Of a stretch of DNA of 64,000 nucleotides, positions 50,968-57,313 are shown one piece after another (the stretch's first letter is position 1; each line of letters starts with the position of its first letter). Origin of the DNA: an uncultured Alcanivorax sp. (lineage in GTDB: Bacteria > Pseudomonadota > Gammaproteobacteria > Pseudomonadales > Alcanivoracaceae); NCBI GenBank assembly GCA_913055795.1, contig CAJXLA010000002.1, forward strand, positions 21,420 through 85,419, in the 5' to 3' direction. A program made the translations under genes and the position numbers. The notes beneath the pieces were generated by a model. The model was given only the letters and a program-made list of their open reading frames with translations. It made no database searches and had not been told where the DNA came from.

Positions 50968-50981
50968 TTGATCTGAATCAA
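50968..50981 (-). promoter_or_regulatory. FNR/ANR box upstream of ccoN
   Basis: TTGATCTGAATCAA, exact match to TTGAT-N4-ATCAA, about 63 nt upstream of the ccoN ATG. Confidence 0.88.
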
Positions 50982-51192
50982 AGCCGTCACCCGGGCGTAT
51001 TTTACCGGAGCGCCCGAGTGCGAGAACAGAGCGGTTCGTGACTATTCAGGCAAAACAGCAATCACTCGCATCGGCGACGGCTTTGTGGGGCTGTTTGTAT
51101 TCACGCGTTCACGTTGTCCCGGTAGACTGCCCTCTGCCGCGGCCGGCATTCCGGCCGAGCGGTCGCCACGGAATACCGGGAGTTGATCCAGC

Positions 51193-52203
51193 ATGCGCGA
51201 GCTGCCCGCACTTCGCCTGCCGAGCCGGCAAAGCAGCCTGAAGGGTGCCGAGCGTCGGGTGGGCGTGGAAATCGAATTCTCGGGCATCGGTTTTAACGAG
51301 CTGGTTGCCACGGTGGCCGACTACCTGGGCGGCGAGGCCCGGGAGAAGGCCTACTACGAGATGGCCATTGCCACGCCGGAAGGCGAGTATCTGGTGGAGC
51401 TGGACTCCGCGCCGGTGAAGGCGCTGGACGATTATTATCCCAGCCTGCCCGAGCCCCTGGCCCAGTTGCGTGACGGCGCCAAGGATCTTTTTGAGGCGGC
51501 GGCGGAACGGGTGGTGCCGCTGGAAGTGGTTACGCCGCCGTTGCCGCTGTCGCTGCTGTACAAGGTTAACGGGCTCTGTGATCACCTGCGCGCGCACGGC
51601 GCCCTGGGCAGTCGCCATGCGGCCTATTTTGCCTTCGGATGCCAGCTCAATCCGGAGTTGCCCGATTACGAGGCGGATACCCTGCTGGCCTATATGCGCG
51701 CCTTTGCCGGGCTCTACCCCTGGCTGCGCGAGCGCCAGCAACTGGATTTCAGCCGCAAGCTGACCACCTATATCAGCCCCTGGCCCCGGCCCTATGTGGA
51801 GCTGATCAGTGATCCGGACTACCAGCCGTCCCGGGAACAGCTGATCATCGACCATCTGGAGTACAACCCCACGCGCAACCGGGCCCTGGATCTGCTGCCG
51901 CTCTGGGCGCATCTGCGCCCGGACATCCTCTGGCAGTGCGTGGACGACAAGCGCATCAAGGCCCGGCCCACGCTGCACTACCGGCTGCCGGACTGTGACC
52001 TGGACAACCTGGACTGGAGTTTTGCTCATGTCTGGAATGACTGGGCCGCCGTGGAGGCGCTGGCATCGGACGAGACCCGGCTGGCGGAGTTCATGGTTGC
52101 CTTCCGGGGCAGCCTGAAACGGTCTCCGGAAAACCGCCGTCGTGACTGGGTGGAGGAGTGTGATCAATGGGTACACCAGGCACTCGCCCGCTCGTCGGCC
52201 TGA
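51193..52203 (+). CDS. Putative amidoligase (GCS/COOH-NH2 ligase-like)
   Basis: RRVGVEIEFSGIGFNELVATVADYLGGE; YLVELDSAPVKAL; EVVTPPLPLS; HAAYFAFGCQLNPE. Confidence 0.85.
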   Translation: MRELPALRLPSRQSSLKGAERRVGVEIEFSGIGFNELVATVADYLGGEAREKAYYEMAIATPEGEYLVELDSAPVKALDDYYPSLPEPLAQLRDGAKDLFEAAAERVVPLEVVTPPLPLSLLYKVNGLCDHLRAHGALGSRHAAYFAFGCQLNPELPDYEADTLLAYMRAFAGLYPWLRERQQLDFSRKLTTYISPWPRPYVELISDPDYQPSREQLIIDHLEYNPTRNRALDLLPLWAHLRPDILWQCVDDKRIKARPTLHYRLPDCDLDNLDWSFAHVWNDWAAVEALASDETRLAEFMVAFRGSLKRSPENRRRDWVEECDQWVHQALARSSA

Positions 52204-52895
52204 GTTTTCGGCACCCGGGCCGTCCGGACGCGCTGCTCGCACGGCTCGCGCTGACCCGGAACGGCGCTCGGGTGCGGATGCTGCGCCCGGGCAGTCCCGT
52301 GCCCTGGGAGGCGCTCAACGCCCTGGTGATCGGTGGCGGTCATCACATTCACCCGGGTTGTTTCGGCCAGGACCCTGCGGTGCGCGCAGGCTATCGTCCT
52401 CACCGTGATCGGCTGGAACTGGAGCTGCTGGATTTCGCACGCCGGCGCGCCCTGCCGGTGCTGGGGATCTGTCGGGGCGCGCAGGTGCTGAACGTCAGCC
52501 GGGGCGGAGTGCTGGTTCAGGATATCGTGCCCCTGCGCGAGTTCACTCAACCCGGCCGGCTGCTGTTGCCGCTCCAGTCCGCGCGCGTGCAGCCCGGCTC
52601 GCGGCTGGCACGGTTGCTCACCCGGACTCGGCTGGGCATCAACCGCATTCACAGCCAGGCCATGGAAAGCCTGGGTGCCGGCCTCAGGCCCGTGGCCTGG
52701 GACGCCGACGGCTTTATTCAGGCCATCGAAAGCACCGATGGCAGCTGGCAGCTCGGGGTGCAATGGCACCCGGAATATCTGCTCTATCACCCGCTGCACC
52801 GGCGGCTGTTCGCCGGGCTGGTGCGCGCCGCCCGGCGCTGGCGCAACCGGCAGGGCAAGACCACGGCGACGCCGGGCGCGCATGAAGACGGCTAG
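52167..52895 (+). CDS. Class-I glutamine amidotransferase / gamma-glutamyl hydrolase-like (C26)
   Basis: NALVIGGGHHIHPGCFGQ; ALPVLGICRGAQVLNVSRGG (nucleophile Cys); GVQWHPEYL; overlaps amidoligase by 37 bp. Confidence 0.88.
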   Translation: MGTPGTRPLVGLSFRHPGRPDALLARLALTRNGARVRMLRPGSPVPWEALNALVIGGGHHIHPGCFGQDPAVRAGYRPHRDRLELELLDFARRRALPVLGICRGAQVLNVSRGGVLVQDIVPLREFTQPGRLLLPLQSARVQPGSRLARLLTRTRLGINRIHSQAMESLGAGLRPVAWDADGFIQAIESTDGSWQLGVQWHPEYLLYHPLHRRLFAGLVRAARRWRNRQGKTTATPGAHEDG

Positions 52896-52931
52896 CTGTG
52901 CAATCTCATCAGTTTTTCAACGGCCTGCTAG
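52892..52931. repeat. Minimal or half copy of the element between convergent genes
   Basis: CTAGCTGTGCAATCTCATCAGTTTTTCAACGGCCTGCTAG; each CTAG supplies the TAG stop of the flanking gene. Confidence 0.7.
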
Positions 52932-53353
52932 AGCAGTGTCTGTTCGCCCAGCCACAGAATCGCCGCGTAGCGCGCGCCCTTGCCCGTGCCCACCAGCAGG
53001 GTGAACAGCCAGAAGGGCACGCGCATAATGCCGCCCACAAAGGTCAGCGCGTCGCCGCCCACCGGCATCCAGGCGAGCAGCAACGACCAGGTGCCGTATC
53101 GGCGGAAGCGCTCCTGGGCCTTGTGCAGCGTGGCCGGTTTGACGGGAAACCAGCGCCGGTCCTGGTAATGCAGCAGATAGAGCCCGATGAGCCAGTTCAC
53201 ATGAGCCCCCAGCGTGTTGCCCAGCGTTGCTGCCGCCCACAAACCCCAGGGCGAAAACCCCTGATGCATGTAGGCGAGCAACACCGCCTCGGAATAAAAG
53301 GGCAGAATGGTGGCGGCGCCCAAGGCGGAAGCGAACAGGATCAGGTAGGCCAT
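52928..53353 (-). CDS. YqaA/DedA-like small membrane protein
   Basis: ATILPFYSEAVLLAYMHQGFSPWGLWAAATLGNTLGAHVNWLIG; WMPVGGDALTFVGGIMRVPFW. Confidence 0.85.
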   Translation of the reverse strand: MAYLILFASALGAATILPFYSEAVLLAYMHQGFSPWGLWAAATLGNTLGAHVNWLIGLYLLHYQDRRWFPVKPATLHKAQERFRRYGTWSLLLAWMPVGGDALTFVGGIMRVPFWLFTLLVGTGKGARYAAILWLGEQTLL

Positions 53354-55192: not shown

Positions 55193-57313
55193 ATGACACG
55201 TCTTTTGCCCTTGTTGTTGCTGGTGTTGCTGGGCGCTTGTGATAACACCCCGGAACCCGATGACCGGCCCAGGGCACGCGATTTCAGCAACTATACGGAC
55301 AAGGGGGATCTGGCCGACATTCGCGAGCGCGGGTATCTGCGTCTGCTCGCGCCGCGCTCGGATCTGGACGGCCGGTTGCCGCGCGAGGGCGTGCCCATGG
55401 AGGCCTACCGTGAAGAGGCCGAGGATTTCGCCCGGTCGGAAGGGCTGACACCGGTCTGGGTCTATGTCGATAACTTCGATGTGCTACTGGCGGAACTGCG
55501 CGCCGGGCGTGGTGATCTGGTGGTAACCAATCTCACCCAGACCCGCTCGCGGGATCAGATCGTGGATTTCAGTCTGCCCGTGGCCATGGTGGATGAAGTT
55601 CTGGTGCTGCCCGCGGACTCCGGGCTGGAGTCCCTGGACGATGCCAGTGATCTCACCATTGCCGCGCCCCGGGGTACGTCCTATCTGGAGACGGCCCACG
55701 AAGTCTCTCTGGAGCGCCCGGAGATCACGGTGCGCAGGCTGGAAGGGGGTGTCAGTGACCGGCAGATGGTCCGCGGCGTGGCCACGGGGCGCCATGACGC
55801 GGCCATTATCGATTCCAACATGGTGCCTGTGCTTGTGGACGACAACCGCCGGGTACGGCGGGGCCCCGTGCTCAATGACAACCGCGCCATTGCCTGGGCC
55901 AGCCGGCCGCAGAATCCGGATCTGCGACGCCGCCTCAATGAATACCTGATCAGCCACCGCGTGCTGGCCTCACGCTCGGAAACGCAAAAGCGGGACTGGT
56001 CGGCCATCAAGGAATCGGGCGAACTGCGTGTGATTACCTCGAACAACCCGGCGAGCTACTTTGTCTGGCGCGGTGATCTCATGGGCTTCGATTACGAGCT
56101 CATGGAACGCTTCGCCGAGCGCCATGATCTGCAATTGAGCCTGGTGGTGCGCAGCACGCCTTCAGCCATGTTCGAGGCCCTCAAGAAGGGGCGTGGCGAT
56201 GTCATCGCCGCCTCGTTGACCAACACCGAGGATCGGCGCCAGCGCGGCATCCGCTTTAGTCGGCGCTACCTGGAAGTGACGGAACAGCTGGTGGGGCCGG
56301 CAAAAATGGACGGTATCGATGAAGAGGCCGATCTCGACGGCCGTACCGTGGTGGTCAATCCGGAGACCAGTTATTACGACACCCTGCAGAAGATTCAGGC
56401 GCAGAAAGACATTGAACTGACGATTCGGAAGGCGCCCGAGCAAACCACCGAACGGTTGATTGCCGGGGTCGACGACGGGCGCTATCCGCTGACGGTGGCG
56501 GACAGCCACCTGGCCGGGCTGGAATCGTCCTGGCGCTCGGGCGTGAAGGTGCTGACGGATCTGTCGGATACGCGCGATATCGCCTGGGCGTTGCGCAAGG
56601 CTCAATCCGAACTCAAAAAACAGTTGAATGCGTACATTGGCGACGAATACCGCGGCACCTTCTACAACATTACCTACAAGAAGTACTTCAAGCAGACCAA
56701 GTCCATCCGCCGGCACCGCGAACACCGGGTCGAACCGGGCGAGGCCATTTCGCCCTTTGATCATCTGGTCAAGAAATACGCGGATGAACACGGCTATGAC
56801 TGGCGCATTATTACCGCCCAGATGTTCCAGGAAAGCCGCTTCAATCCGGAAGCACGTTCCTTCGCCGGCGCACGGGGGCTGATGCAGCTCATGCCGCGTA
56901 CCGCGCGGGAGTTGGGCTATAGCAATCTTGGCGATCCGGAAGTGTCCATTGCCGCGGGCGTAGAGTATCTGGACTGGCTCTGGGACCGTTTTCCCGGTGA
57001 TTTGCCGCTGGAGGAACGCATCTACTTCACGCTGGCGTCCTACAACGCCGGTTATAACCATGTCCGCGACGCGCGACGCCTGGCGCAGCAGCAGGGGCTG
57101 GATCCGGACCAATGGTTCGCCCATGTGGAGAAGGCCATGCTGCTGCTGCAGAAGCCGCAATATTTCCGCGATGCCCGCTTTGGCTATGTGCGCGGTCGTG
57201 AACCGGTGCAGTACGTGCGTGAGATCCGCAACCGCTACATCGCCTATCTTGAGGTCACCGAACGCAAGAAGCTCGGCAAGAAGGCCCCGGCCCCGGACAA
57301 GCTGGTAGACTAG
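55193..57313 (+). CDS. MltF-like lytic transglycosylase with two solute-binding domains
   Basis: Lipobox LLGAC; two SBP_bac_3-like repeats (RERGYLRLLAPRSD... and KESGELRVITSNNPAS...); SLT domain AQMFQESRFNPEARSFAGARGLMQLMPRTA. Confidence 0.88.
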   Translation: MTRLLPLLLLVLLGACDNTPEPDDRPRARDFSNYTDKGDLADIRERGYLRLLAPRSDLDGRLPREGVPMEAYREEAEDFARSEGLTPVWVYVDNFDVLLAELRAGRGDLVVTNLTQTRSRDQIVDFSLPVAMVDEVLVLPADSGLESLDDASDLTIAAPRGTSYLETAHEVSLERPEITVRRLEGGVSDRQMVRGVATGRHDAAIIDSNMVPVLVDDNRRVRRGPVLNDNRAIAWASRPQNPDLRRRLNEYLISHRVLASRSETQKRDWSAIKESGELRVITSNNPASYFVWRGDLMGFDYELMERFAERHDLQLSLVVRSTPSAMFEALKKGRGDVIAASLTNTEDRRQRGIRFSRRYLEVTEQLVGPAKMDGIDEEADLDGRTVVVNPETSYYDTLQKIQAQKDIELTIRKAPEQTTERLIAGVDDGRYPLTVADSHLAGLESSWRSGVKVLTDLSDTRDIAWALRKAQSELKKQLNAYIGDEYRGTFYNITYKKYFKQTKSIRRHREHRVEPGEAISPFDHLVKKYADEHGYDWRIITAQMFQESRFNPEARSFAGARGLMQLMPRTARELGYSNLGDPEVSIAAGVEYLDWLWDRFPGDLPLEERIYFTLASYNAGYNHVRDARRLAQQQGLDPDQWFAHVEKAMLLLQKPQYFRDARFGYVRGREPVQYVREIRNRYIAYLEVTERKKLGKKAPAPDKLVD

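Follow-up and report, generated by a model that had tools for sequence, protein, structure and literature searches.

A conserved amidoligase and PuuD/SpuA-type hydrolase gene pair in an uncultured Alcanivorax, and its recurring YqaA-type neighbour

Organization of the locus

The DNA analysed here (the window) is a stretch of 64,000 nucleotides from the genome of an uncultured Alcanivorax sp., in which the gene of an amidoligase overlaps that of a C26/GATase-like hydrolase and is followed, on the opposite strand, by the gene of a small membrane protein. The features of the locus, in window positions, are these:

51178-51182, + strand: purine-rich ribosome-binding stretch GGGAG, before the ATG of the ligase gene
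51193-52203, + strand: Amidoligase_2 protein gene, 336 aa (PF12224, 181.7 bits, E=2.9e-53)
52152-52158, + strand: ribosome-binding site GGAGGAG of the hydrolase gene, 8 nt 5' of its ATG and inside the ligase gene
52167-52203, + strand: overlap of the ligase and hydrolase reading frames, 37 bp; overlap or near-contact recurs in relatives
52167-52895, + strand: Peptidase C26, PuuD/SpuA-type hydrolase gene, 242 aa (PF07722, 132.9 bits, E=1.8e-38)
52928-53353, - strand: YqaA-type (COG1238) DedA/VTT membrane protein gene, 141 aa (VTT_dom PF09335), convergent to the pair

The coordinates of both reading frames and their overlap, as given in an earlier note on this DNA, were confirmed, and so were the GICRGAQ and WHPE motifs that it had read in the C26/GATase-like protein, the first containing Cys102 and the second His201 and Glu203. 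It is likely that the 37-bp overlap couples the translation of ligase and hydrolase. The source genome carries a single amidoligase gene. Between that gene and a divergent cbb3 oxidase gene (start 50949) there is a perfect FNR/ANR-type box, TTGATCTGAATCAA, at 50968-50981, which most likely serves the oxidase gene. Further along, positions 55193-57313 of the window encode a 706-aa MltF-like lytic transglycosylase whose N-terminal part apparently includes an additional solute-binding domain, giving two tandem binding domains before the transglycosylase.

Predicted enzymes of the pair

At the sequence level, the ligase matches Amidoligase_2 along the whole domain (profile positions 2-244 of 245), its score of 181.7 bits exceeding the cut-off of 22. 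When the protein was aligned with 20 relatives in the order and with 39 in named genomes, a set of residues proved to be kept, all of them present here (R21, GVE26xE28, E69xD71, N153, R228, D233 and RPxxHYR at 258-264), and R228-R230 was conserved as well. The GVExE start of the protein is typical of the Glu/Cys-ligase fold, as in gamma-GCS. Among the NCBIfam families neither the ligase nor the hydrolase reaches a cut-off. The AlphaFold model of the ligase (pLDDT 87.5, pTM 0.87) has its best PDB matches in 2gwc, 1r8g and 3ln7, with plant glutamate-cysteine ligase in first place (E 2.4e-4, probability 1.00) followed by YbdK and GshF, and the top seven matches are all GCL/YbdK/GshF-type ligases. 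The overall fold is therefore like that of glutamate-cysteine ligase (GshA, plant GCL) and YbdK, whereas the search of the ligase sequence against solved structures gave no significant match. The TM-score against GCS of about 0.47, with an rmsd of 8 A, places the two enzymes in the same superfamily and not in the same family, and at this distance the fold does not reveal the donor or the acceptor. The model thus supports a predicted ATP-dependent, amide-forming COOH-NH2 ligase of the GS/GCS fold. A phage or defence origin of the ligase was also considered and rejected, there being no ligase match in PHROGs, PADLOC or the phage collection.

The hydrolase has an intact triad, C102-H201-E203, that is invariant in 36 sequences. 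Its best NCBIfam match is PuuD (NF008471), at 67.7 bits and far below the cut-off of 266 that PuuD orthologues reach; judged by sequence, it is a predicted enzyme of the same kind as PuuD and not PuuD itself. PuuD and SpuA hydrolyse gamma-glutamyl amines and serve polyamine catabolism. In a sequence search against the PDB, lin1909 (3fij), SpuA and PuuD were the only entries below 1e-10, and the same three proteins are nearest to the AlphaFold model (pLDDT 91.8): 6vtv PuuD, 7d50 SpuA and 3fij lin1909 were matched with E values of 1e-20 to 1e-19 (1e-20 to 5e-20 for PuuD and SpuA), as against 5e-13 or worse for the GATase domains of synthases. The Arg of the GICRG motif is also seen in SpuA, and PuuD has it as well. 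The SpuA structure 7d50 was solved with a glutamyl thioester, that is, with the mechanism proposed here for the hydrolase. Two suggestions of the earlier note, namely a glutamine synthetase/gamma-GCS (COOH-NH2 ligase) fold for the amidoligase and a gamma-glutamyl-hydrolase-type partner for it, are consequently supported, the former by the structure prediction and its PDB matches, the latter by the family profile, the intact triad and the proximity of PuuD and SpuA.

Conservation of the pair

Within the order, the ligase was found in 21 of 95 genomes, and in 19 of these 21 the hydrolase gene lies directly downstream. It also directly follows the ligase gene at 31 of 34 further loci from the class and phylum and at 77 of 80 named database loci, samples that overlap in part. 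The relatives in genome contigs were recovered with an alignment query, a single-sequence query having returned none. The Marinobacter group contributes 56 of the 80 named loci, the rest including Salinisphaera, Haliea, Spongiibacter, Pleionea, Halochromatium, Oceanimonas and Salinivibrio; the named ligase matches, ranked by similarity to one query, seem to lean towards marine or halophilic organisms. Alphaproteobacterial plasmids carry the pair too, with an amidoligase and a glutamine amidotransferase or gamma-glutamyl-GABA hydrolase annotated side by side in public records. The same gene order and orientation in dozens of genera rule out a chance pairing, so that the two-gene unit proposed in the earlier note is real; the lack of co-occurrence in other genomes, which that note had named as the outcome that would speak against it, was looked for, and these neighbourhood surveys found the reverse. 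Scores above 300 bits for the hydrolase subfamily were confined, in the order, to the 19 genomes in which its gene adjoins that of the ligase (19 of 19), and the next best score was 140 bits. The pairwise distances of ligase and hydrolase are correlated (r=0.92), a value expected from shared species history alone. The ligase stands without the hydrolase at several loci (L018, L020, L097, L112, L113, L157, L217 and L219), which indicates that the hydrolase is not obligatory.

A wider operon around the pair was considered and rejected, as no gene other than those of the hydrolase and of YqaA recurs. In the Marinobacter group (L147-L202) the pair is located between lexA-sulA and TamB-TamA, genes that were named by eye from the sequence; these flanks were rejected as members of the unit, since they reflect genus-level synteny and occur at none of the 24 other loci.

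YqaA as a recurring third partner

Clustering of the neighbouring genes left the small VTT protein, YqaA, as the sole further family that recurs across bacterial families, and it is regarded here as a third conserved partner of the pair, absent from the earlier two-gene description. The copy in the window and E. coli YqaA share 39.8% identity across 128 aa (E 1e-24). In other genomes the gene comes directly after the hydrolase gene, co-oriented with it and almost touching it, as observed at L003, L007, L010 and L017 and at 10 of the 24 named loci outside the Marinobacter group, in which YqaA is in the unit at none of 56 loci. Spongiibacter marinus and Oceanimonas baumannii, both cultivable and marine, have this co-oriented arrangement. 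At L018 and L020, both from one family, it comes immediately after the ligase gene, in genomes that lack the hydrolase subfamily. At L087 and L089 a distance of 2.9 kb separates it from the pair, with two inserted genes in between that are on the opposite strand and look permease-like and dipeptidase-like by eye. Two further loci carry remains: at L227 (genome G434, 1458-2209) a YqaA gene sits next to a hydrolase gene fragment on a contig with no ligase, apparently a decaying unit, and at L081 (G339) a YqaA remnant of about 75 codons is found behind the pair, with a complete YqaA belonging to the same subclade on another contig.

Some YqaA/VTT-like match is present in 217 of 369 genomes of the class, and for genes this common the adjacency to the pair needed a control. 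Around 33 unlinked YqaA loci there was no conserved neighbour; any gene that recurred did so at no more than a few loci, which mostly came from a single family. A tree built from 78 YqaA proteins unites all 24 linked copies in a single group of 37 rows (support 95/86), and the window protein belongs to the subclade of linked copies. The 13 unlinked members of this group include six from genomes with a ligase elsewhere and one that is the G434 remnant. High-scoring YqaA proteins occurred in 11 of 18 ligase-bearing genomes of the class sample and in 4 of 351 others (Fisher p ~1e-13), a p value that serves as a guide only because it ignores shared ancestry and the YqaA model was trained on linked copies. 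In E. coli, gshA adjoins a yqaA gene. This link was considered as support and rejected: gshA adjoins yqaA at none of the 33 other unlinked loci, and the tree places E. coli YqaA outside the subclade of linked copies.

Relation to known systems

A neighbourhood of Amidoligase_2 (PF12224) with a glutamine-amidotransferase-like thiol peptidase was reportedly predicted by Iyer et al. in 2009. The window locus is a member of it, with the same ligase family, the same type of partner and the same gene order; the difference lies in the YqaA-type membrane partner, of whose link to that neighbourhood no mention was found. The literature search retrieved no later experimental work on PF12224 pairs and, with most subscription journals outside its reach, no report of a link between YqaA and the amidoligase pair. 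As far as was found, the pair has thus stood as a prediction without an assigned substrate since 2009. The description of this system as poorly described, made in the earlier note, holds as to the substrate; it does not hold for the neighbourhood, said to have been proposed in 2009, or for the genes, which are publicly annotated side by side. The pair was therefore already predicted, and the YqaA link is an added observation worth testing.

The gamma-glutamylpolyamine pathway of PuuA/PuuD and SpuI/SpuA (Pau) shares with the present pair the family and fold of the hydrolase and the logic of making and cutting an amide, but the ligase here belongs to the Amidoligase_2 branch and is not a PuuA-like glutamine synthetase. 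Membership in Puu/Pau was looked for in the form of a linked oxidase, dehydrogenase or PuuA-type ligase, and none of these recurs beside the pair. With the DedA/VTT proteins of COG1238 (YqaA), the membrane protein has homology along its length and the VTT domain in common, whereas the linked copies form a subclade of their own tied to the amidoligase unit. This dedicated subclade provides a second, independent handle on the pair, as the product of the enzymes should concern a DedA-type membrane protein.

Proposed function and alternatives

In the mechanism proposed here, the ligase would activate a carboxylate with ATP by way of an acyl phosphate, most likely the gamma-carboxylate of glutamate, and would then join it to the amine of an acceptor. 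The hydrolase would take this glutamyl group off again, with Cys102 carrying it as a gamma-glutamyl thioester. Encoded by overlapping genes and produced in step, the two enzymes could between them control how much of a gamma-glutamyl amide is present, while YqaA proteins of one subclade would act in that pathway in many lineages, perhaps transporting its product or a product-linked lipid. That the ligase gamma-glutamylates an amine with ATP, that the hydrolase undoes this and that YqaA serves the same pathway is, taken together, moderately probable; we infer the use of ATP, glutamate as the donor and a substrate common to both enzymes.

The second protein might instead be a glutaminase subunit that splits glutamine and hands ammonia to the ligase for the formation of a primary amide, in the manner of TrpG with TrpE or of the GATase of GMP synthetase. 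Its class-I GATase fold with a full triad would suit such a role, and overlapping genes with near-obligate pairing are typical of subunits. Nevertheless, by sequence and by predicted structure the protein groups with the free-standing PuuD, SpuA and lin1909, well apart from the synthase GATases, which points to a hydrolase of gamma-glutamyl amides more than to a supplier of ammonia; the GICRG Arg shared with SpuA and the ligases that occur beside YqaA without any hydrolase (L018, L020) also tell against a subunit, and this alternative is considered unlikely. A catabolic route of the Puu/Pau kind, with the ligase glutamylating an amine, other enzymes oxidising it and the hydrolase freeing the end product and recycling glutamate, would agree with the role of the closest characterised hydrolases, PuuD and SpuA, in polyamine catabolism and with an aldehyde dehydrogenase upstream of the pair in one Rhodobacteraceae plasmid. 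Across families, however, the recurrent neighbours of the ligase are limited to the hydrolase and YqaA, with no oxidase, aldehyde dehydrogenase or transporter among them, and the ligase comes from a fold branch other than that of PuuA; such a route is decidedly improbable.

The adjacency of YqaA could also be incidental, a common gene having been inherited beside the pair in one ancestral lineage with no functional link. That YqaA/VTT-like genes abound in the class, with some match in 217 of 369 genomes, agrees with this, and since the linked copies occupy a single clade, many loci may go back to one ancestral event. On the other hand, unlinked YqaA genes lack a conserved neighbour in 33 loci, while the linked copies have kept their shared strand and close spacing in some dozen family groups, including at loci that lack the hydrolase (L018, L020); the enrichment in ligase-bearing genomes (11 of 18 versus 4 of 351, p ~1e-13, with ancestry ignored and a model trained on linked copies) points the same way. 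An incidental adjacency appears rather unlikely.

A more specific version of the glutamylation and deglutamylation reading is a three-component envelope system, in which the ligase would glutamylate an amine-bearing lipid or precursor, the hydrolase would reverse the reaction and the dedicated YqaA would flip or export the product. It is offered as a speculative and very improbable extension, and if true it would provide a first substrate for COG1238 DedA proteins. It draws on the association of one YqaA subclade with the pair, on the proposal that COG1238 proteins move uncharged or positively charged lipids (PMC10127716) and, as a weak hint, on a distant Azospirillum amidoligase near a DedA gene. 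A YqaA mutant has been described to accumulate indium (PMC8679861). On the Azospirillum plasmids in question (L250, L252), the distant amidoligase gene directly precedes those of a response regulator and a sensor kinase, the DedA gene lies downstream and there is no hydrolase; the L250 plasmid also carries an undecaprenyl-diphosphate phosphatase (UppP) gene near the distant amidoligase.
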